DNA from: Polaromonas hydrogenivorans
GTDB taxonomy: Bacteria > Pseudomonadota > Gammaproteobacteria > Burkholderiales > Burkholderiaceae_C
Length of the DNA stretch: 64,000 nt
Assembly: GCF_040105105.1 (NCBI RefSeq)
Contig: NZ_CP157676.1
Coordinates: 1-64,000 of the forward strand
Direction of reading: 5' to 3'
Shown: positions 31,128-60,874 of the stretch, piece after piece
Layout of the letters: every line of letters begins with the position of its first letter
How positions within the stretch are numbered: the stretch's first letter is position 1
Position numbers and translations under genes: made by a program
The notes under the pieces: generated by a model
Told to the model about the DNA's origin: nothing
The model's database searches: none
The model's input: the letters and a program-made list of their open reading frames with translations, nothing else

Positions 31128-32002
31128 CTACGCGGGCTGCAGCATCTCCAGCGGACTGACCACCTCGCGCAGCACCTCGGTGGCGACATGGGTGTAGACC
31201 GAGGTGGTCTCCAGCTTCTTGTGCCCGAGCATCACCTGGATCACACGGATGTCCACCTTCTGCTCCAGCAGATGGGTGGCGAAGCTGTGACGCAGCGTGT
31301 GCATGGAGACGCGCTTGTCGATCCTGGCCGCTTCGGCGGCGGCGTGCACGGCGCGGTTGAGCTGGCGTGCGGTCAATGGATCCACCGGGTTCATGCCGGG
31401 GAACAGCCAGCCGCCCGGCAGCATCTTGCCTTGGGCATGGGCGACTCGCCACCAGGCGCGCAGCCGCTCCAGCAGCAAGGGACAGAGCATGGCGTAGCGG
31501 TCCTTGCGACCCTTGCCCTGCTCGACGCGCAGCGTCATGCGCTGGCTGTCGATGTCGCCGACCTTGAGTGCCACGATCTCACTGACCCGAAGCCCGGTGC
31601 CGTACGCGATGGACAGGGCCGTCTGGTACTTCAGGTTGGAGGCCGCAGCGATCAGGCGCGCAGCCTCGTCGCGACTGAGCACCACGGGCAGCTTCTGGGG
31701 CACATGCACGTAGCTCATTCGGGCCATCAGCTCCCCCGGTCGAGCGTGACGTCGAAGAAGAACTTCAGCCCGGTGATGGTGGCGTTGAGCGTGATCGGCG
31801 AGATGCCTCGATCGGTCATGTGCAACTGGAACCGCTGCAAATCCTCTACGGTGGCTGTGTCGGGCGAGCGTCTTAGAAAGCCGGCGAGGTATCGCACCGC
31901 GCGAACGTAGGCGGCCTGGGTCTTGGGTTCGAGCTTGCGCATGCGCATGTCGTCGAGCATGCGCTGGCGCAGCGGCGAGATGGCTTGGGTCGAAGGGATC
32001 AT
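31128..32002 (-). pseudogene. Accessory tyrosine integrase of the IS91-type element, frameshift at a G run
   Basis: The N-terminal frame (start ATG 32002) holds the SAM-like core-binding domain: MRKLEPKTQAAYVRAVRYLA to FFFDVTLDRGS and a stop near 31727. The catalytic domain is in the next frame: LPVVLSRDEAARLIAA, GTGLRVSEIVALKVGD, MHTLRHSFATHLLEQ and VMLGHKKLETTSVYTHV, giving R, H-x-x-R, H and Tyr. The frames meet at GACC followed by five G; six G would read through. That can be a one-base deletion or slippage on the run. All catalytic residues remain, so a slippage product would be complete (about 291 residues). Confidence 0.75.
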
Positions 32003-50065: not shown

Positions 50066-50263
50066 GGATGGTGTATCCAGTCAACAGGTCTCTCATCTTT
50101 CTCCCCACCCGGCAGGTGCACTACTCATTCGTGCAAGCAGGGGCAGTCAAAGTCTACGCTGATCCAACGTAAGCAATGGGATGAACGCCCCCACCCATAA
50201 CGGCATCGTTGTGCCAAAGTGGAGACGTTGATCAACCACTTGAACTGAGAAGGGGCATCCACC

Positions 50264-51301
50264 ATGAAGCTTACGACTTTTGGCATTGACCTGGCAAAAA
50301 ACGTCTTTCAGGTCCACGGAATTGATGAGCATGGCAAGGTACTCGTGAAGAAGCAGCTTCGTCGAGATCAGATGGCCACGTTCTTTGTAAACCTCCCGCC
50401 GTGCCTGATTGGAATGGAAGCCTGTGGCAGCGCGCATCACTGGGCGCGCAAGCTCCAGGCGATGGGCCACACGGTCCGCCTGATGGCGCCGCAGTTCGTC
50501 AAGCCGTATGTCAAGTCCAACAAGAACGATGCCGTTGACGCCGAGGCCATCTGCGAGGCAGTAGGCCGACCCAACATGCGCTTCGTGCCGATCAAGAACG
50601 TGGAGCAGCAGGCAGTGCTCGCGTTGCACCGGGTTCGCCAGGGTTTCGTGAAAGCGCGCACCGCCCAGGCCAACCAGATTCGCGGGCTCCTTGGGGAGTT
50701 CGGCCTTATCGTTCCCCAGGGTATTGGTTACATCACCACGCGGGTTCCTGAACTGATCGAAGACGCTGAAAACTCACTGCCGGGCTCTTTCCGCCAGCTT
50801 GTCCAGCGGCTGCTTGACCATCTCAAGGAGCTCGACCGGCAGGTCGAAGAAATTGAGGCGCAGATCCAGGCATGGCATCGAAACAGCGAACTCAGCATGA
50901 GGCTCGCGCAGGTGCCTGGTATCGGCCCCATCACGGCAAGCGCTCTGGTCGCCTCCGTGGGAGATGCGAAGAACTTCGACGACGGCCGGCAGTTGGCCGC
51001 GTGGCTGGGCCTGGTGCCCCGGCAGCACTCTTCTGGAGGCAAATCAAACTTGCTGGGCATGAGCAAGCGTGGCGACAGCTACCTTCGTACTTTGCTGATA
51101 CACGGCGCGCGCTCGGTCATCTACCGTGCCGGGCAAAAGGCAGACCCGTGCAGCTGGATCAATTCAGTGGTTAAACGGCGCAACAAGAATGTCGCGGCAG
51201 TCGCGCTGGCCAACAAGAATGCCCGAATCGTCTGGGCGTTGCTGGCCCACGGCCGGTGCTATGAGAAGGGCTACCGCAAGGCGGTCGTCGAGGCCGACTG
51301 A
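50264..51301 (+). CDS. IS110/IS1111-family transposase
   Basis: DEDD transposase of 345 residues. RuvC-like catalytic domain: TFGIDLAKNVFQVHGID (first Asp), CLIGMEACGSAHHWARKL (Glu), and KSNKNDAVDAEAICEAV (two Asp). The C-terminal transposase_20 domain holds LAQVPGIGPITASALVASVG and GRQLAAWLGLVPRQHSSGGK, with the conserved serine region near LLGMSKRGDSYLRTLLIHGA. Such enzymes act with a structured RNA from the element's non-coding end. A ribosome-binding site GAGAAGGGG precedes ATG 50264. Confidence 0.92.
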   Translation: MKLTTFGIDLAKNVFQVHGIDEHGKVLVKKQLRRDQMATFFVNLPPCLIGMEACGSAHHWARKLQAMGHTVRLMAPQFVKPYVKSNKNDAVDAEAICEAVGRPNMRFVPIKNVEQQAVLALHRVRQGFVKARTAQANQIRGLLGEFGLIVPQGIGYITTRVPELIEDAENSLPGSFRQLVQRLLDHLKELDRQVEEIEAQIQAWHRNSELSMRLAQVPGIGPITASALVASVGDAKNFDDGRQLAAWLGLVPRQHSSGGKSNLLGMSKRGDSYLRTLLIHGARSVIYRAGQKADPCSWINSVVKRRNKNVAAVALANKNARIVWALLAHGRCYEKGYRKAVVEAD

Positions 51302-51576
51302 CCGAAGGCTCACCACGTAAAAGCAAAACGAAGCGAGGGAGGAATACCACCGATTGCTCAGGCGATCATGAAGTGATGGCAAGACAGGTTAGACCGTGGT
51401 TGACAAAGCCCGTGCCAGCCGGGGCACCCAGAGTGCGTGTAAGCGATTGGGCGTCAACCAGCAAATCCCATCAGGGACCGCAGTCAAGAACTGCACTCAG
51501 AGTCCGAATGTACGGGAGCAATCTTTACCTTTGCGTCGTCATGAATTGAGAGGCTGGCATAGGGGGCGTTCATGTA
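51302..51576 (+). ncRNA. Candidate bridge-RNA region of the IS1111-group element
   Basis: 275 bp without a gene between the transposase stop and the right end. In IS1111-group elements the long non-coding side is the right one and encodes the bridge RNA. The region contains complementary pieces and is long enough, but no structure was computed. The call rests on position and family knowledge. Confidence 0.35.
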
Positions 51577-51629
51577 CGGCTGGGCATCCCATCTTGAAGG
51601 ACTGCGAATAGGTTGAGATAGTGTGCGCG

Positions 51630-52025
51630 ATGAACATCATGCACACCATGGCGAGTAAGACTCGCACCACCCAGGTCCCCAAGCGCCGGTTCTACAGCCC
51701 TGAACTCAAGCTGCAGGTTGTCCAGACATGCGCGCAGCCTGGCGCGTCCATTGCTGCAGTAGCCCTGCAACACGGCATCAATGCCAACATCGTGCACCGA
51801 TGGATACGTGAGCATAGCCAGGGAACGCTGGTCATTGAGCCACAGGCGTTTGTGCCGGTCACCTTGAGCACGGAGCCCGAACCCGTTGCCATCCAACCTG
51901 TGGCGGTGGCGGCCACGGCAGAAATCCGAATGGAATTGCGGCGCGGCACCTCCTCGGTGACGGTGATGTGGCCGAGCGAACTGGCAAGCGATTGTGGCGC
52001 CTGGCTGCGCGAGTGGCTACGATGA
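51630..52025 (+). CDS. tnpA: IS66 accessory protein TnpA (copy 1)
   Basis: Protein of 131 residues, or 134 from an upstream GTG at 51621. Helix-turn-helix of transposase_8 type: RFYSPELKLQVVQTCAQPGA, SIAAVALQHGINANIVHRWI. The rest has low similarity, with VTVMWPSELASDCGAWLREW at the end. It overlaps tnpB by ATGA. The identical protein is encoded in copy 2 at 60421-60816. Confidence 0.88.
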   Translation: MNIMHTMASKTRTTQVPKRRFYSPELKLQVVQTCAQPGASIAAVALQHGINANIVHRWIREHSQGTLVIEPQAFVPVTLSTEPEPVAIQPVAVAATAEIRMELRRGTSSVTVMWPSELASDCGAWLREWLR

Positions 52026-52363
52026 TCCGCATTGACGCGCTGTGGCTGGCAACCACCCCGATAGACATGCGCATGGGAACGGAGCGTTTGTTGGCACGGG
52101 TGGTGCAGGTGTTCGGGGCGGCCCAGGCCCATCATGGATACCTCTTTGCTAACGCCCGTGGCAACCGCATGAAGCTGCTGCTGCACGATGGCTTTGGCAT
52201 GTGGTGCGCGGCCCGGCGGCTCAATCAAGGCGGGTTTGAATGGCCACGCGCTGGCGCCGATAGGGCCACCTCGATGACGCTGACAAAGCAGCAATTCGAT
52301 GCCCTGGTGTTGGGACTTCCGTGGAGCCGGCTGGAACAAATGCAGTCCATTACGCGGGTGTAG
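52022..52363 (+). CDS. tnpB: IS66 accessory protein TnpB (copy 1)
   Basis: Protein of 113 residues of the IS66 Orf2 family: LWLATTPIDMRMGTERLLAR, then HHGYLFANARGNRMKLLLHD, GFGMWCAARRLNQGGFEWP and a C-terminal LTKQQFDALVLGLPWSRLE. Required with TnpA for IS66 transposition. Its start overlaps the tnpA stop. An identical gene lies in copy 2. Confidence 0.9.
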   Translation: MIRIDALWLATTPIDMRMGTERLLARVVQVFGAAQAHHGYLFANARGNRMKLLLHDGFGMWCAARRLNQGGFEWPRAGADRATSMTLTKQQFDALVLGLPWSRLEQMQSITRV

Positions 52364-52726
52364 GAACGCTGTCCTTTAACGCTGTAAAAAGGGCAATTGG
52401 AGGATGCCCTGATTCTCTTTTTTGTGTGGATTTTGCACAATCCACGCATGCTCCGCGTGGACCAACTCAGCGCCCAAGACTTTGTCGGTCTGAGCCCTGG
52501 CGCCGCTGCCGAATTGGCCGCCCGTGTGTTGGCACACGTTGGCGAGCAGAGCCGGCAAATCGAATCCCAGGCCCAGGCCATCGGGTTCAGGGATGCCAAG
52601 ATCGCAAGCATCACCTTTGAGCTGCGCCGCCTCAAGGCCTGGCGCTTCGGTGCCAAGACCGAATGCATGTCTGCCGAGCAGCGCCAGTTGTTTGAAGAAA
52701 CGCTGGCAGCCGACCAGGCAGACCTA

Positions 52727-53905
52727 GTGTCGCGTCACGAGAAGTTTGACGCGGACAATGGGGGATGGAACATTACAAAGTCACCTTGTCAGAGCAGGAA
52801 AGAGCCGAGTTGCAGGGCATCGCAGGCAAAGGCACGCACGCGGCGTCCAAGGTCATCAATGCCTTGATACTGCTCAACTGCGACCAAGCTGGGGAACGCA
52901 CCGAGCGACCCCGCACTTGCGACATCGCAGCCATGCTGTGCGTGAGCGAGCGCAAGGTGGACCGGGTGAAAAAGAAGTTTGTCCTGGAAGGCCTGGATCC
53001 GACCCTGAACCGCCAGCCCTCCAAGTGCGAATACGACCTGAAGATCGATGGCCGCCTGGAGGCGCAGCTGCTCGCCCTGAGCTGCTCGGCGCCACCCGAA
53101 GGCTGTGCTCGCTGGTCGCTGCGGCTGCTGGCCGACCGGCTGGTCGAGCTGGAGTATGTGGACAGCGTCTCGCACGAGACGGTGCGCCGGGCGCTGAAAA
53201 AAACGAACTCAAGCCCTGGAGGAAGGTCGGCTGGGTGATCGCGCCGCAAGCCAGCGCCGCCTTCGTGGCCGCCATGGAAAAGGTGCTGGACCTCTACAGC
53301 CGGCCCTACGATCCAAAGCACCCGGTGGTGTGCATGGATGAGACGCCCCGGCAACTGATTCGCGAGACCCGCGAGCCCATTGCCGCAGCTGCTGGCCGGC
53401 CCGAGCGCCATGACTACGAGTACGAACGCTGTGGCGTGTGCAACGTCTTCATGGCCAGCGAGCCGCTGGCCGGGCGGCGCCTGACCAAGGTCACCGAGCG
53501 CAGAACCAAACTGGACTGGGCTGTATTTGTGCAGGACATTGCTGCCAGCTACCCCGACGCCGAGCGCATCACGCTGGTCATGGACAACCTGAATACGCAC
53601 ACAGCGGGCTCACTGTACGAGGCGTTTGCCCCCGGGCAGGCCAAGGCGCTGTGGGACCGCTTCGAGTTCGTCTACACCCCGAAGCACGGCAGCTGGCTCA
53701 ATATGGCGGAAATCGAGATCAACGTGCTCGTCAAGCAATGCCTGAGCCGGCGCATCGACAACATCGAGACCGTGCGCAGCGAGGTCGCTGCCTGGCAAGC
53801 TCGCCGCGACAACCTTCAGGCCAAAGTCAACTGGCAGTTCACGACCAAGGATGCCCGCGTCAAGCTCAAACCGCTTTACCCGACAACTACTTCGTGACGC
53901 GACAC
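52727..53905 (+). mobile_element. IS630-family element inserted in tnpC
   Basis: A 1,179-bp element with terminal inverted repeats GTGTCGCGTCACGA (52727-52740) and its exact complement (53892-53905). It is flanked by TA on both sides (52725-52726 and 53906-53907), the target duplication of this family. The uninterrupted site, GACCTAGAGGCC, is visible in IS66 copy 2, which confirms the boundaries to the base. Confidence 0.95.
52765..53897 (+). CDS. IS630-family transposase, made by -1 frameshift at A7
   Basis: Frame 1 (52765-53238) encodes the helix-turn-helix half: GKGTHAASKVINALILLNCD, TCDIAAMLCVSERKVDRVKK and the domain up to VSHETVRRALKKTN. Frame 2, continuing to 53897, encodes the DDE half: PVVCMDETPRQLIRE (first Asp), ITLVMDNLNTHTAGSLYEAF (second Asp) and FVYTPKHGSWLNMAEIEINV (Glu). 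They join at GCGCTG followed by seven A and CG (A AAA AAA type). Slipping back one base gives LKKNELKPWRKVGW. The fused product is about 377 residues. Slippery A runs are known to produce transposases by programmed -1 shifting. Confidence 0.85.
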
Positions 53906-55098
53906 TAGAGGCCCAACTCGCAGCACTGAAGGCGGCCTCCAAAGAAACGGGCAACACGCCAGAGCCCGACACCCGACGTCAGCCAAAGCGTCAGGCCCTG
54001 CCCGAGCACCTCAAACGGATAGAGCACCACCATGAGCCGGAGAACACGACCTGTGGCTGCGGCGAGGCGATGGTGCGTATCGGCGAAGACGTGAGCGAGC
54101 GCCTGGACATCATCCCCGCTCAATTTTTCGTGCACCGCCACATCCGCGGCAAGTGGGCCTGCAAGTGCTGCCAGACCCTGTTGCAAGAACCGGTGGAGCC
54201 ACACATCATTGACAAGGGGATGCCCACGGCCGGTCTGGTGGCGCACACTACGGTAAGCCGCTTCGTTGACCACATTCCGTACTACCGCCAGGAGCAAATC
54301 AACGCCCGTTCCGGCGTTCACACACCGCGTTCCACGCTGGCGTCGTGGTCCGGCCAGGCAGGTGCAGCCTTGCTGCCTCTGTATGCGGCGCATCGGGAGT
54401 TTGTTCTCAGCTGTGCAGTGGTTCATGCCGACGAGACGCCGGTGGCCATGCTGGATCCCGGCGCGGGCAAGACCAAACGGGCCTACGTCTGGGCTTATGC
54501 CAGAGGCGGATTTGATGTTTCACCCGGCGTGGTGTATGAATTTTGCCTGGGCCGAGGGGCCAGGTACCCGCTGGAATTCCTCAAGGGCTGGTCGGGCACG
54601 CTCATCTCCGACGGGTACGGGGTGTACGACCAGGTCCTGAAGCAGGAAACCCGCATCGGCGCAGCTTGTTTCGCGCACGCACGTCGAAAGTTTGATGAAC
54701 TGGTCAAGGACAACCTGAGTCCGGTGGGCACGCAGGCCCTACAGCGCATGGCAGCGCTCTACCAAATTGAGCGCCAGGTCAAAGGCTTCTCGGCTGAGGA
54801 TCGGCAGGCCATCAGGCAATCGAGCTCCAAGCCGCTTTGCGAGGATCTGCACGCCTGGTTGAAGCTGGAGCGCCAACGCGTGCCCGAGGGCGGTGCCACG
54901 GCCAAGGCGATTGACTACAGCCTGAACCGCTGGGAAGCGCTGACAACTTACCTGGCCGACGGCAACGTCCAGATTGATAACAACCATCTTGAGAATCTGA
55001 TTCGGCCATGGGCAATGGGGCGCCGGGCATGGTTGTTCGCAGGCAGCGAACTTGCCGGCCAACGTGCCGCCATCATCATGAGCCTGGTGCAGTCGGCC

Positions 55099-55207
55099 CT
55101 ATGCCGGATGCGGCATAGTGCCGACTACGCCGACCGCCGAACTATGCCGAATGGGCTCGCTTCTTCCTGAATTCTCCGTAGTCGGCATGTGATCGGTTCG
55201 GCATAGT
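55099..55207 (+). repeat. Left terminal inverted repeat of the RIT element
   Basis: Matches the complement of 58420-58528 with one difference (GTCGGCATG here, GTCAGCATG on the other side). Inside it ACTATGCCG and CGGCATAGT are repeated in both directions, including the small palindrome TATGCCG GATG CGGCATA at its outer edge. Such arrays are likely binding sites for the recombinases. Confidence 0.85.
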
Positions 55208-55242
55208 TCATCCTGCCTCCGTCCTCAACAACGGAGAATTTG

Positions 55243-56487
55243 ATGACTAATACGGCAGAGTATTTGAGCCGGAGCCGGCTGTTCCGGCGCCTGAGAAGCG
55301 GCACCCACGGGCATCTTGTGGAGTTGTACGCGGCGCGTCTTGTCGAGGTTGGGCTCAGTAGACACGGGACTTGGCGTTCTCTCAACGTGGTCGGCAATCT
55401 CTTGGCCTGGATGACAAGCCACCGGACTAAGCTGAGAAGTCTTGATGAACGCATGGTCGAGCGCTACCTGCGACACCAAGGAGCAAAGCGGACCATCCAA
55501 TTCGACGACCGGGCCGCGCTGAAGCGGTGGCTGCTGACACTACGTGCCGTCGGCACAATTGCGCCGGCGCCGGTCCCGATGAACACGCCGCTACAGCAGA
55601 TTTTCGCGGAGTTTGGCGACTATCTGCGAAGCGAGCGCGGTCTGACAGTAAAGACTATCGCGCACCATCAGCCTGCGATCCGTCGGTTCCTGTTTGAAGT
55701 CTGTCCCGGCGGCGTCAGCGATCTCGGCAAGATCAATCAGGACGAGGTGATTCGCTATGTCGAGTGTCACGCCCAGGATGGGAGCCCGAAGTCCGCCAAG
55801 TTGATGTGCTGGTCGCTGCGAGCGTTTCTCCGATACCTTCATCACACGGGATTGAACCCGCACGCATTGGGCGGCTGCGTTCCCTCGATCAGGCAATGGA
55901 ACCTCGTAGGCCTCCCGACTTATCTTTCTGCGGCGCAGGTTCAGAAGGTTTTGGACAGTTGCGACCGGGCATCCGCGGTAGGACGACGTGATTTCGCCAT
56001 TTTGCTGATGCTTTCCAAGCTCGGCCTGCGGGCTGATGAGGTCGCCACCCTCACTTTGGACGACATCGACTGGAGAGCTGGCGAGATGCTCGTTCGCGCC
56101 AAGGGCCGGCAGCGCGCCAGGATGCCGATTGCGTCAGACGTCGGCGCAGGGATCGCCGCCTATCTACAGGACGGTCGACCCAAGTCCCCCTGCCGTCAGC
56201 TATTTCTTCGCAGCCTTGCGCCCCACACCGGATTTTCGTCCGCCAGCGCAATCACGATGATCGCCAAGACCGCGCTCAAGCGTGCCGGCATCCAGGGCTA
56301 CGCGCACCAGGGTGCCCATATTTTCCGGCACAGCCTGGCCACGGAACTCCTGCGCTCTAGTGCAACTTTGTCGGAGATCGGCCAGCTGCTGCGGCACAAG
56401 AACCAGGACACCACGCGGATCTACGCAAAGGTTGATATCGAGGCGCTCCGCACATTGAGCTTGCCGTGGCCGGGAGGTGAGCAATGA
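55243..56487 (+). CDS. RIT tyrosine recombinase A
   Basis: Recombinase of 414 residues from ATG 55243 (ribosome-binding site ACGGAGA). The core-binding domain (LRSERGLTVKTIAHHQPAIR) is preceded by an N-terminal extension of about 100 residues. Catalytic residues: Arg in MLSKLGLRADEVATLTLDDI, Lys in VRAKGRQRARMPI, H-x-x-R in GAHIFRHSLATELL, His in LLRHKNQDTTRIY and Tyr in the same RIYAKVD. The start lies 36 bp inside the left inverted repeat. The stop overlaps the next start by ATGA, so the three are one operon. Confidence 0.9.
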   Translation: MTNTAEYLSRSRLFRRLRSGTHGHLVELYAARLVEVGLSRHGTWRSLNVVGNLLAWMTSHRTKLRSLDERMVERYLRHQGAKRTIQFDDRAALKRWLLTLRAVGTIAPAPVPMNTPLQQIFAEFGDYLRSERGLTVKTIAHHQPAIRRFLFEVCPGGVSDLGKINQDEVIRYVECHAQDGSPKSAKLMCWSLRAFLRYLHHTGLNPHALGGCVPSIRQWNLVGLPTYLSAAQVQKVLDSCDRASAVGRRDFAILLMLSKLGLRADEVATLTLDDIDWRAGEMLVRAKGRQRARMPIASDVGAGIAAYLQDGRPKSPCRQLFLRSLAPHTGFSSASAITMIAKTALKRAGIQGYAHQGAHIFRHSLATELLRSSATLSEIGQLLRHKNQDTTRIYAKVDIEALRTLSLPWPGGEQ

Positions 56488-57410
56488 CGGATCTACATTC
56501 GGCACTGCAGCGGTACCTGAGTATGCGCAAAGGGTTTGGATTCAAGTACCAGCATCAGACACGACGGCTCGCCGACTTCGTCGACTGCATGGACAAACGC
56601 AAGGCCACGACCATCACGTCGAAACTCGCGATGGAGTGGGCGACGCTACCGCCCGGCCGGCATGCGTCCTGGGCATTGCGGCTGACGGATGTTCGCGGCT
56701 TTGCGCGCCATATCGCAAGCTTCGATCCGAAGACGGAAGTGCCCCCGGTCGGAATCCTGCCGGGCCTGAAGCGTGCCAAGCCCTACGTCTATAGCGATGC
56801 AGAGATCGATGCGTTGCTGGCAGCAGCCCTGTCCTTGCCGCCATCAGGTGCTCTGCGCCGCTGGACTTACCACTGCCTGTTCGGACTCATCGCGGTGACG
56901 GGCATGCGTTTGTCCGAGGTGATCGGCCTTCAACGTGACGACGTCGACCTGGACGCCGGTGTGCTGACGATTCGACTGACCAAGTTTGGGAAGTCACGAC
57001 TCGTACCCGTGCATCCAACGACAAGCGCAGCGCTACGCAATTACACGCAACGGCGCGATGCCCATCTAACAACGCGCCGCGACCCACATTTCTTCGTTGC
57101 GGAGCGAGGCGGACCACTGTTGCGTCAATACGTTCATAGCGTCTTCTGGCAGTTGTCGCGTGAGACTGGTCTGCGGCGTCCTGGCGATCACACGGGACCA
57201 CGCATGCACGACTTTCGGCACCGATTCGCCATTTGCACGCTGTTGGGCTGGTATCGCGAAGGCAGCGATATCGAGAGGATGCTCCCAATGCTTTCCACCT
57301 ATCTTGGCCACTCCTGCGTGCGGGACACCTATTGGTACCTCTCGGCATGCCCGGAGCTGATGCAAGAGGCGGCGCAGCGTCTTGATCGAAGGTGGGAGAG
57401 TCAACCATGA
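56484..57410 (+). CDS. RIT tyrosine recombinase B
   Basis: Recombinase of 308 residues. Core-binding segment RYLSMRKGFGFKYQHQTRRL; catalytic Arg in VTGMRLSEVIGLQRDDVD, Lys in RLTKFGKSRLVPVH, H-x-x-R in MHDFRHRFAICTLL, His in STYLGHSCVRDTYWYL and Tyr in DTYWYLS. All catalytic residues seem present. It is the shortest of the three, as is usual for the middle gene of such trios, and overlaps both neighbours. Confidence 0.9.
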   Translation: MTDLHSALQRYLSMRKGFGFKYQHQTRRLADFVDCMDKRKATTITSKLAMEWATLPPGRHASWALRLTDVRGFARHIASFDPKTEVPPVGILPGLKRAKPYVYSDAEIDALLAAALSLPPSGALRRWTYHCLFGLIAVTGMRLSEVIGLQRDDVDLDAGVLTIRLTKFGKSRLVPVHPTTSAALRNYTQRRDAHLTTRRDPHFFVAERGGPLLRQYVHSVFWQLSRETGLRRPGDHTGPRMHDFRHRFAICTLLGWYREGSDIERMLPMLSTYLGHSCVRDTYWYLSACPELMQEAAQRLDRRWESQP

Positions 57411-58411
57411 AGCCCGTCGGCTGCAACCTCGCCCCGCTCGTCGAGCGCTACTTTACCGAACGGCTTATCCGTCAGCAAAACGTTAGCGCCAATACGATTG
57501 CATCCTACAGAGACACGTTCAGATTGTTGCTCAAGTTTGCAAAGGAGAGGCTTCGCAAGGATCCCTCTGCCCTGACCCTCGATGAACTGGACGCGCCTTT
57601 CATCGGCGCGTTTTTGACCGATCTCGAGATGAATCGCGGCACCAGCGTCACGACACGCAACCTGCGCCTGACCGCCATCCGCTCCTTCTTCCGCTTCGTG
57701 TCCTTCGAGGAGCCGGCTCACAGCGCCCTTATCCAACGCGTGCTCGCAATACCGAGCAAGCGACACGATAAGCGTGAAGTGAATTTTCTGACGCGTTCCG
57801 AGATCGAAGCCGTCCTTGCTGCGCCCGATCGCGTGACGTGGATCGGCCACCGTGATCACACATTGCTACTGCTCGCGACCCAGACCGGCTTACGCCTCTC
57901 CGAGTTGACCGGCTTGCGCAGGGAGGCTATTCATCTCGGCACCGGTGCGCATGTTCGGTGTGTGGGCAAAGGCCGCAAGGAGCGATGTACCCCACTGACG
58001 AGATACGCCCAGATCGCGCTTCAGGCGTGGCTCAAGGTGCCGGCGCGGCGTGGCGCCATAACCTTGTTCCCCAACCTGCACGGAGGCCAGCTCAGTGCTG
58101 ATAGCGTCCAGTCGCTGCTGGCTAAATATGTGGGCGTCGCCAGCAAGACATGCCCATCGCTGGCATCCAAGCGTGTGTCACCGCACGTCCTGAGGCACAG
58201 CGCGGCAATGGAGCTCCTGCAGGCGGGCGTCGACTGTTCGGTGATCGCGTTGTGGCTCGGTCATGAATCAATCGAGACCACGCAGCTCTACCTTCATGCC
58301 CACCTCGCCCTCAAGGAGGCAGCTCTCGCAAAGCTTGAGCCATACAAGCAATGCAAGCGCCTTCGCTTCCGCCCTGAGGATCACCTGCTCGCCTTTCTCG
58401 AGGCACTGTAA
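57407..58411 (+). CDS. RIT tyrosine recombinase C
   Basis: Recombinase of 334 residues from ATG 57407, overlapping the previous stop. Core-binding segment RQQNVSANTIASYRDTFRLL; catalytic Arg in QTGLRLSELTGLRREAIHLG, Lys in CVGKGRKERCTPLT, H-x-x-R in PHVLRHSAAMELLQ, His in LWLGHESIETTQLY and Tyr in QLYLHAHL. The stop lies 8 bp before the right inverted repeat. The three recombinases are diverged from each other, suggesting distinct roles in one recombination complex. Confidence 0.9.
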   Translation: MKPVGCNLAPLVERYFTERLIRQQNVSANTIASYRDTFRLLLKFAKERLRKDPSALTLDELDAPFIGAFLTDLEMNRGTSVTTRNLRLTAIRSFFRFVSFEEPAHSALIQRVLAIPSKRHDKREVNFLTRSEIEAVLAAPDRVTWIGHRDHTLLLLATQTGLRLSELTGLRREAIHLGTGAHVRCVGKGRKERCTPLTRYAQIALQAWLKVPARRGAITLFPNLHGGQLSADSVQSLLAKYVGVASKTCPSLASKRVSPHVLRHSAAMELLQAGVDCSVIALWLGHESIETTQLYLHAHLALKEAALAKLEPYKQCKRLRFRPEDHLLAFLEAL

Positions 58412-58419
58412 GCGGTCAG

Positions 58420-58528
58420 ACTATGCCGAACCGATCACATGCTGACTACGGAGAATTCAGGAAGAAGCGAGCCCATTCGGCATAGTTCGGCGGTCGGCGT
58501 AGTCGGCACTATGCCGCATCCGGCATAG
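58420..58528 (-). repeat. Right terminal inverted repeat of the RIT element
   Basis: Inverted partner of 55099-55207. The outer end runs into IS66 copy 2 tnpC at codon SLVQSA, exactly as on the left. It supplies the last 23 codons and the stop of the truncated tnpC on this side. Confidence 0.85.
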
Positions 58529-59998
58529 GGCCGACTGCACCAGGCTCATGATGATGGCGGCACGTTGGCCGGCAAGTTCGCTGCCTGCGAACAACCATGC
58601 CCGGCGCCCCATTGCCCATGGCCGAATCAGATTCTCAAGATGGTTGTTATCAATCTGGACGTTGCCGTCGGCCAGGTAAGTTGTCAGCGCTTCCCAGCGG
58701 TTCAGGCTGTAGTCAATCGCCTTGGCCGTGGCACCGCCCTCGGGCACGCGTTGGCGCTCCAGCTTCAACCAGGCGTGCAGATCCTCGCAAAGCGGCTTGG
58801 AGCTCGATTGCCTGATGGCCTGCCGATCCTCAGCCGAGAAGCCTTTGACCTGGCGCTCAATTTGGTAGAGCGCTGCCATGCGCTGTAGGGCCTGCGTGCC
58901 CACCGGACTCAGGTTGTCCTTGACCAGTTCATCAAACTTTCGACGTGCGTGCGCGAAACAAGCTGCGCCGATGCGGGTTTCCTGCTTCAGGACCTGGTCG
59001 TACACCCCGTACCCGTCGGAGATGAGCGTGCCCGACCAGCCCTTGAGGAATTCCAGCGGGTACCTGGCCCCTCGGCCCAGGCAAAATTCATACACCACGC
59101 CGGGTGAAACATCAAATCCGCCTCTGGCATAAGCCCAGACGTAGGCCCGTTTGGTCTTGCCCGCGCCGGGATCCAGCATGGCCACCGGCGTCTCGTCGGC
59201 ATGAACCACTGCACAGCTGAGAACAAACTCCCGATGCGCCGCATACAGAGGCAGCAAGGCTGCACCTGCCTGGCCGGACCACGACGCCAGCGTGGAACGC
59301 GGTGTGTGAACGCCGGAACGGGCGTTGATTTGCTCCTGGCGGTAGTACGGAATGTGGTCAACGAAGCGGCTTACCGTAGTGTGCGCCACCAGACCGGCCG
59401 TGGGCATCCCCTTGTCAATGATGTGTGGCTCCACCGGTTCTTGCAACAGGGTCTGGCAGCACTTGCAGGCCCACTTGCCGCGGATGTGGCGGTGCACGAA
59501 AAATTGAGCGGGGATGATGTCCAGGCGCTCGCTCACGTCTTCGCCGATACGCACCATCGCCTCGCCGCAGCCACAGGTCGTGTTCTCCGGCTCATGGTGG
59601 TGCTCTATCCGTTTGAGGTGCTCGGGCAGGGCCTGACGCTTTGGCTGACGTCGGGTGTCGGGCTCTGGCGTGTTGCCCGTTTCTTTGGAGGCCGCCTTCA
59701 GTGCTGCGAGTTGGGCCTCTAGGTCTGCCTGGTCGGCTGCCAGCGTTTCTTCAAACAACTGGCGCTGCTCGGCAGACATGCATTCGGTCTTGGCACCGAA
59801 GCGCCAGGCCTTGAGGCGGCGCAGCTCAAAGGTGATGCTTGCGATCTTGGCATCCCTGAACCCGATGGCCTGGGCCTGGGATTCGATTTGCCGGCTCTGC
59901 TCGCCAACGTGTGCCAACACACGGGCGGCCAATTCGGCAGCGGCGCCAGGGCTCAGACCGACAAAGTCTTGGGCGCTGAGTTGGTCCACGCGGAGCAT
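58457..59998 (-). pseudogene. tnpC: IS66 transposase TnpC (copy 2), 3'-truncated
   Basis: An uninterrupted TnpC frame of 513 codons from ATG 59998. N-terminal coiled coil and SKxxxFGxxSE-type region (LRRLKAWRFGAKTECMSAEQ), zinc-binding domain (CGCGEAMVRIGEDVSERLDI, GKWACKCC), catalytic residues in CAVVHADETPVAMLDPG, LISDGYGVYDQVL and NVQIDNNHLENLIRPWAMGR. After IIMSLVQSA the true C terminus (about 35 residues) is replaced by RIT-repeat sequence. It may still fold, but the lost end makes activity doubtful. Confidence 0.85.
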
Positions 59999-60082
59999 GC
60001 GTGGATTGTGCAAAATCCACACAAAAAAGAGAATCAGGGCATCCTCCAATTGCCCTTTTTACAGCGTTAAAGGACAGCGTTC

Positions 60083-60424
60083 CTACACCCGCGTAATGGA
60101 CTGCATTTGTTCCAGCCGGCTCCACGGAAGTCCCAACACCAGGGCATCGAATTGCTGCTTTGTCAGCGTCATCGAGGTGGCCCTATCGGCGCCAGCGCGT
60201 GGCCATTCAAACCCGCCTTGATTGAGCCGCCGGGCCGCGCACCACATGCCAAAGCCATCGTGCAGCAGCAGCTTCATGCGGTTGCCACGGGCGTTAGCAA
60301 AGAGGTATCCATGATGGGCCTGGGCCGCCCCGAACACCTGCACCACCCGTGCCAACAAACGCTCCGTTCCCATGCGCATGTCTATCGGGGTGGTTGCCAG
60401 CCACAGCGCGTCAATGCGGATCAT
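60083..60424 (-). CDS. tnpB: IS66 accessory protein TnpB (copy 2)
   Basis: Identical to the TnpB encoded at 52022-52363, 113 residues, with the same ATGA overlap with tnpA. See that entry for motifs. Identity also holds for the flanking non-coding bases, which points to a recent duplication. Confidence 0.9.
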   Translation of the reverse strand: MIRIDALWLATTPIDMRMGTERLLARVVQVFGAAQAHHGYLFANARGNRMKLLLHDGFGMWCAARRLNQGGFEWPRAGADRATSMTLTKQQFDALVLGLPWSRLEQMQSITRV

Positions 60425-60816
60425 CGTAGCCACTCGCGCAGCCAGGCGCCACAATCGCTTGCCAGTTCGCTCGGCCACATCACCGTCACCGAGGAGGTGC
60501 CGCGCCGCAATTCCATTCGGATTTCTGCCGTGGCCGCCACCGCCACAGGTTGGATGGCAACGGGTTCGGGCTCCGTGCTCAAGGTGACCGGCACAAACGC
60601 CTGTGGCTCAATGACCAGCGTTCCCTGGCTATGCTCACGTATCCATCGGTGCACGATGTTGGCATTGATGCCGTGTTGCAGGGCTACTGCAGCAATGGAC
60701 GCGCCAGGCTGCGCGCATGTCTGGACAACCTGCAGCTTGAGTTCAGGGCTGTAGAACCGGCGCTTGGGGACCTGGGTGGTGCGAGTCTTACTCGCCATGG
60801 TGTGCATGATGTTCAT
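60421..60816 (-). CDS. tnpA: IS66 accessory protein TnpA (copy 2)
   Basis: Identical to the TnpA encoded at 51630-52025, 131 residues. Its 5' flank retains the complete IS66 terminal repeat, unlike copy 1 where an IS110-type element has split it. Confidence 0.88.
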   Translation of the reverse strand: MNIMHTMASKTRTTQVPKRRFYSPELKLQVVQTCAQPGASIAAVALQHGINANIVHRWIREHSQGTLVIEPQAFVPVTLSTEPEPVAIQPVAVAATAEIRMELRRGTSSVTVMWPSELASDCGAWLREWLR

Positions 60817-60874
60817 CGCGCACACTATCTCAACCTATTCGCAGTCCTTCAAGATGGGATGCCCAGCCGCTTAC

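Follow-up and report, generated by a model that had tools for sequence, protein, structure and literature searches.

The window analysed here, 64,000 nucleotides in length, comprises bases 1-64000 of replicon C2 (382 kb) of Polaromonas hydrogenivorans, whose 5.37 Mb genome is assembled in 6 contigs. It contains a RIT (recombinase in trio) element at the centre of a large palindrome made of IS66 transposon DNA. Reading from the left, the locus comprises an IS110/IS1111-type element, then an IS66 5′ part carrying an IS630-type insert, the RIT, and the same IS66 5′ part in inverted orientation. Published RIT elements have three adjacent, overlapping tyrosine recombinase genes, span ~3.5 kb, and carry inverted repeats near their ends that overlap with a palindrome (Van Houdt et al. 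2012, PMC3414803). The features of the RIT and of the two IS66 arms are as follows.

51577..55098, plus strand: left IS66 5′ part (tnpA, tnpB, and tnpC up to ..QSA); the arm is 51577-52727 plus 53909-55098, identical to the complement of the right arm over 2341 nt
52728..53904, plus strand: IS630-type element, left arm only, between CTAG copies at 52724-52727 and 53905-53908; DDE_3 domain (Pfam)
55094..55123, plus strand: left 30-bp junction unit, with core CGGCC, palindrome CTATGCCGGATGCGGCATAG (55099-55118) and inner core TGCCG
55099..55207, plus strand: left RIT inverted end, 109 bp, from repeat search and letter comparison
55240..56487, plus strand: ritA, tyrosine recombinase of 415 aa (PF00589, PF02899)
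56484..57410, plus strand: ritB, tyrosine recombinase of 308 aa (PF00589)
57392..58411, plus strand: ritC, tyrosine recombinase of 339 aa (PF00589, PF02899)
58420..58528, minus strand: right RIT inverted end, 109 bp, with one mismatch to the left end, opposite 55184
58504..58533, minus strand: right 30-bp junction unit, palindrome at 58509-58528; the same sequence as the left unit if each is read in the direction from IS66 to RIT
58529..60874, minus strand: right IS66 5′ part with outer terminus GTAAG (complement of 60870-60874), from Pfam and terminus match
58457-60049, minus strand: right-arm tnpC, continuing into the RIT
60083-60478, minus strand: right-arm tnpB
60421-60825, minus strand: right-arm tnpA

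A first-pass annotation of this DNA had proposed a RIT with three tyrosine recombinases and 109-bp inverted ends, and both Pfam and repeat comparison agree with it. The three adjacent genes overlap and all carry PF00589 (Phage_integrase), and the element (55099-58528, 3430 bp) with its 20-bp palindrome fits the ~3.5-kb size of the group. There is no room for a fourth gene, as ritA begins 33 bases past the left end and ritC stops at 58411, with the right inverted end starting at 58420. The gene trio, the size, the inverted repeats and the palindrome are shared with the RITs in the available published descriptions, whereas the window differs in its 109-bp ends and its two inverted IS66 5′ parts.

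A repeat search paired 51577-52727 with 59719-60869, and 53905-55207 with 58420-59722. With the IS630-type insert and one CTAG copy removed, letter-by-letter comparison of 51577-52727 plus 53909-55207 with the complement of 58420-60869 gave 2450 nt with a single mismatch (G vs A at 55184), which lies inside the RIT end and leaves the 2341 nt of IS66 identical. This alignment had been proposed as a check by the first-pass annotation, and it bears out both the inverted IS66 5′ parts broken at one tnpC codon and the recent date claimed for the event. In both copies tnpC is cut after ..MSLVQSA, lacking the last ~40 codons relative to the 528-aa TnpC of Polaromonas plasmid pPNAP02, and the tnpC 3′ part is absent from both sides; the presence of the same 5′ part on both sides also supports the earlier statement that this is not a simple insertion into IS66. 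The palindrome ends where the IS66 arms end, and the flanks further out are not inverted copies of each other. The mirrored structure, as known from the assembled sequence alone, is real and recent.

The transposon itself resembles the IS66 family in its tnpA, tnpB, tnpC gene order, in the Pfam domains that confirm all three proteins, and in its GTAAGCG terminus, located at 60874; it differs from the family in having only the 5′ part, present twice and inverted, and in its shortened tnpC. The right IS66 part is 91% identical to an annotated, uninterrupted IS66 of pPNAP02, its closest match in the plasmid collection, and IS66 relatives of 85% identity are present elsewhere in the same genome. 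The same replicon holds, ~24 kb away from the palindrome, a 3′ fragment of this IS66 (L024 4554-4864, C2:84553-84864); it retains an intact target site, with AAG as the next codon, and is 98% identical over the shared 150 bp. The IS630-type label of the left-arm insert derives from its DDE_3 domain and the CTAG/TA duplication.

One RIT of C. metallidurans CH34 is reported to inactivate an IS66 tnpA (PMC2864759), and radC and a Tn6049-like transposase gene are reported to harbour further RITs (PMC3414803). According to PMC10214605, neither the target specificity of RITs nor their movement has been tested, and its authors state that, to their knowledge, RIT transposition had not been reproduced in the laboratory. 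The flanks of related elements were surveyed in 115 RIT loci: 80 on genome contigs (the best 80 of 100 relatives matched), 24 on plasmid records (blastn matched 244 such records and tblastn 626), 10 from whole genomes, and the window. Two genome surveys, by order and phylum, yielded few close RITs at E 1e-60 or better, in 7/398 genomes besides the own genome and in 6/397. The set of 115 leaves out duplicates (L062, L029 and L032), partial RITs (L064 and L065), and three of the 15 order and phylum matches besides the own genome; G713, G567, G574, G670 and G888 are likewise not included. Flank sides were typed by two small profile models, one of the tnpC segment before the break (5′) and one of the segment after it (3′), both trained on flanks from the same survey set. 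Usable sides, those of at least 150 bases, numbered 168 of 230, and neither reversed nor shuffled flanks were typed (0/168 each); eight calls were weak (<15 bits), including the left side of L072. In the set, seven contigs (L066, L074, L088, L100, L112, L115 and L122), each 3.2-3.4 kb long, hold little besides a single RIT, indicating that assemblies break at RIT ends and that draft genomes probably give too low a count of RITs that are mirrored or present in several copies.

Among the usable sides, 59 were typed as the IS66 5′ part, 76 as the 3′ part, and 33 remained untyped. The relatives sit at one spot in tnpC, after ..SLVQSA or ..SLIETA and before a Lys codon, and this shared site spans elements from 92% DNA identity (L062/L067) to 56% RitB identity (L124). 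Where RitB is at least 56% identical to that of the window (103 loci), 134 of 149 usable sides were typed as IS66; where it is at most 50% identical (12 loci), one of 19 was typed, namely L170, at an odd distance. The IS66 tnpC codon boundary is thus the target of a RIT subgroup with RitB of at least 56% identity, not of RITs at large; the idea that all RITs target IS66 was ruled out by these distant sides and by the published insertions in radC and the Tn6049-like gene. Since it is the usual target of this subgroup, the common break codon of the two IS66 copies in the window is by itself uninformative. Mobility of these RITs appears likely from the many different IS66 copies that the relatives occupy. 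The 8-bp target duplication of IS66 surrounds the whole IS66::RIT structure in 10 of 40 ordinary loci tested (43 in total, three being too short), and with the 8-mer read backwards in 0/40, such that at least these ten look like simple RIT insertions into one IS66.

Both flanks were typed in 51 of the 115 loci, with near-duplicates sharing the same cores retained (L058/L147, L059/L148/L098, L151/L119 and L104/L105). Read with the ritA side first, 25 are 5′/3′, 18 are 3′/5′, six are 3′/3′ and two are 5′/5′, the latter being the window and L125; the RIT therefore occurs either way round at the IS66 site. Mirrored flanks are present in 8/51 loci (the window and 7/50 relatives) and absent from 43/51. 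In L125 the arms are 79% identical, in L092 80% over 65 positions, and in L068 87% over 46, while those of L072, L087 and L103 are not alignable as DNA at the junction, the left arm of L072 being weakly typed (11.7 bits). Arms from different IS66 copies are thus present in six of the eight mirrored loci, one of them (L072) on that weak call. L158, on a plasmid record deposited as complete, is 3′/3′ with 2 mismatches in ~140; its arms stop exactly at the IS66 terminus and its 8-bp outer flanks are unequal (CCAGGGAG vs GACCGAGT). It looks like a 3′/3′ product, the counterpart of the 5′/5′ form in the window; a 5′/5′ partner was not found on the L158 plasmid or, beyond it, in the plasmid collection, to which the search was confined.

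The first-pass annotation had suggested that a copying mechanism of the RIT recombinases that duplicates the flank might account for the structure. In such a reaction, the recombinases would move the RIT while copying and mirroring its flank. The identical arms of the window and the almost identical ones of L158 fit it; however, 43/51 RITs are unmirrored, the mirror in the window ends together with the IS66 arm and not at some arbitrary distance, and arms derived from two different IS66 copies, as in six of the eight mirrored loci, cannot come from one-flank copying as a general cause. Copying as a normal RIT property is not supported by these counts, and such a reaction is very improbable as the origin of the window. 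The survey of RIT flanks that the annotation had called for thus found mirrored forms to recur, with ordinary flanks in the large majority of loci. Diverged mirrored arms instead argue, on the sequences compared, for recombination between IS66::RIT copies, and the window, which shows a known kind of element in recombined form, provides by itself no evidence for a new copying mechanism.

The junctions between RIT and IS66 provide further evidence. On the 5′ side, the RIT is bordered by an extra palindrome, CTATGCCG-nnnn-CGGCATAG or close variants, which is flanked by two cores of ~5 bp, one outer and one inner. Searched with a strict pattern, this palindrome was found on 55/59 5′ sides and 0/76 3′ sides, as well as on 6 untyped sides, and a looser scan found it on 59/59 5′ sides and on no 3′ side. 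The close relatives L062/L067 and L063 likewise have the junction unit on the 5′ side only. The unit follows the polarity of the target, irrespective of which RIT end is located there. The right-hand 30-bp unit of L125 matches the reverse complement of the left-hand one exactly, as expected from a circle with one unit between its ends that inserted once in each orientation into two IS66 copies, followed by a crossover in the RIT. The two units of the window have the same sequence in the same sense and are not reverse complements, suggesting that one end probably received its junction from the other, by copying or exchange inside the 109-bp repeat. A candidate rule that the palindrome centre keeps its direction relative to the RIT proved not to be general, as AGTG has the same direction at the R-end of L077 as at L-ends; the argument that identical units point to an exchange inside the ends is weaker for it.

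Among the 43 ordinary loci there are 37 distinct core sets. The outer 5′ core equals the 3′ core in 13/37 (3.1 expected by shuffling) and differs from it in 24/37; outer and inner core are equal in 11 sets (2.9 expected), and inner and 3′ core in 10 (2.8 expected). The outer and 3′ cores still differ in 6/10 loci that have the IS66 8-bp duplication, suggesting that the element can bring a foreign core with it, as reported for strand-biased circularizing integrative elements (SE) and Tn554 (PMC10214605). Judged by intact-site relatives of at least 90% identity, the native core lies on the 3′ side in L061 and L149 and on the 5′ side in L133; a rule that the 3′ side keeps the native core held for the first two loci and was contradicted by the third. 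Three distant RITs (L172, L175 and L176, RitB 42-43% identical) have the same kind of palindrome at one end, with no IS66 recognised there. The junction unit seems to be older than the IS66 target.

Based on these observations, the window probably arose by exchange of ends between two copies of the same IS66::RIT, a reading held with moderate confidence. A RIT with ritABC and long inverted ends would first have inserted into IS66 tnpC at its usual site, the ..SA|K.. codon boundary. The resulting IS66::RIT, present in two copies, would then have recombined with itself, the left inverted end of one RIT crossing with the right end of its partner, either directly or after one RIT had flipped in place, with the crossover then in the RIT body. 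The retained product would carry the IS66 5′ part and the junction unit on both sides of one RIT, and the 3′/3′ product would have been lost or never have been in this genome. Both 5′ junctions look like copies of one insertion because the units are identical in the same sense, and the crossover was probably inside the 109-bp inverted ends. Close relatives have inverted ends of 90-92 bp at 98-100% identity (L062/L067, 92% identical to the window, and L063, 90%), which would be homology enough for exchange. The first-pass annotation had offered strand exchange between the RIT ends of two molecules alongside flank copying, and the exchange is now the better reading of the two.

An alternative starts from two independent insertions of the same RIT, one in each orientation, into separate copies of one IS66; an ordinary crossover through the 3.2-kb RIT body would then have followed. 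Both orientations are indeed found at the site (25 and 18 of 51), and L125, with its 5′/5′ flanks, its arms of 79% identity and its reverse-complement units, fits this route exactly. For the window, however, the route needs two insertions into identical IS66 copies, and it predicts a flipped unit if the L125 rule holds, where identical units are observed; the rule is not general among relatives, and this origin is considered unlikely.

Several points weigh against an exchange of ends between two copies. A second copy of the RIT was not found in the own genome, which gave one RIT match, and an exact search of it for the IS66 3′ end joined to either outer 8-mer gave 0 matches, the left 8-mer itself being uncertain. 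The tie between unit direction and RIT orientation is seen in one clear case (L125), with the other relatives not strict, and the test based on unequal target duplications is weakened on the left, where the IS110 element hides the IS66 end. With regard to the catalyst, general homologous recombination is the cheaper assumption, and sequence alone cannot separate RecA from the RIT enzymes. It is possible, if rather doubtful, that exchange between the inverted ends of separate RIT copies is catalysed by the RIT enzymes. If so, RITs would be a dedicated system joining IS66 copies by inversion or translocation, and mirrored flanks would be a regular by-product of a symmetric element with one fixed target in a very common transposon.

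The element that adjoins the left outer end of IS66 bears on the outer boundaries:

50166..51576, plus strand: IS110/IS1111-type element, ORF 50264-51301 with Pfam IS110 domains; left boundary uncertain (50166 or 50174)

The first-pass annotation had bounded the structure at 50169..60874. The right terminus at 60874 stands, while GTAAG at 50169-50173 may be the IS110/IS1111-type element's own rather than that of IS66, because two other genomic copies of that element (L013 and L016) are likewise preceded by AACGTAAG; either this sequence is the element's own end, or the element targets GTAAG-type IS66 termini. Unequal target duplications as proof of two loci were downgraded for this reason. The right outer 8-mer, ACCTATTC, is absent from 50100-50260 on both strands, with the left IS66 end hidden by the IS110 element; a right outer flank without a left counterpart is thus only consistent with an exchange between two copies. 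The left flank matches G1184 (91%) up to 50164 and then diverges, the G1184 sequence beyond having only a 143-bp match of 76% in the own genome, and ~93 bp of the right flank adjoining IS66 recur in other genomes. Neither comparison with relatives yielded a clean empty site for the palindrome.

These boundaries also bear on whether the mirrored structure formed elsewhere and was transposed as a unit by means of its two identical IS66 left ends and the transposase of another IS66. Both outer ends are indeed IS66 left ends, and the IS66 relatives of 85% identity could act as a source of transposase; an 8-bp duplication was not found, ACCTATTC being missing from the left side as far as the IS110-obscured boundary allows it to be read, and this origin is considered highly doubtful. 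Misjoining of an inverted repeat at the RIT ends during assembly is equally doubtful. Inverted repeats are a classic source of misjoins, and the structure is known from the assembly, but the arms can be told apart by the IS630 and IS110 insertions and one substitution, the 6 contigs for 5.37 Mb suggest long reads, and mirrored RITs recur, one in the record deposited as a complete plasmid and the others on draft contigs.

The available text of PMC3414803 and PMC2864759 makes no mention of a fixed IS66 codon target, of both orientations or of mirrored flanks, and the open-licence RIT literature searched, within the portions accessible, makes none of mirrored IS66 flanks; the main RIT survey, Ricker et al. 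2013, falls outside that scope. As far as they are described in the accessible part of PMC10214605, SE, GInts and Tn554 resemble RITs in having several tyrosine recombinases, target specificity and a short core carried from donor to new site. Unlike these systems, the RIT lacks a fourth gene (the Srap/TnpC counterpart), has near-perfect inverted-repeat ends, occurs in both orientations, and has no constant end for the native core. For one RIT subgroup the survey gives a testable picture of how the element moves, with a single tnpC codon boundary as the target, elements found either way round, a 30-bp core-palindrome-core unit that keeps to the target's 5′ side, and 8/51 classifiable loci that are recombination products. 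It defines a substrate for a laboratory assay, the direction of the unit may separate the two routes to mirrored flanks, and the findings suggest that RITs create rearrangement hot spots between IS66 copies.

Other recombinase genes were identified in the course of the analysis. Within the window, a match to a ritC-like tyrosine recombinase is located away from the RIT (31146-31682, minus strand). At L063 2277-5424 (G254), a second, distant RIT (RitB 40% identical) lies in opposite orientation just upstream of the IS66::RIT, and on a Marinobacter plasmid (L167 5266-11548) two annotated recombinase trios converge, placing six recombinase genes in a row.

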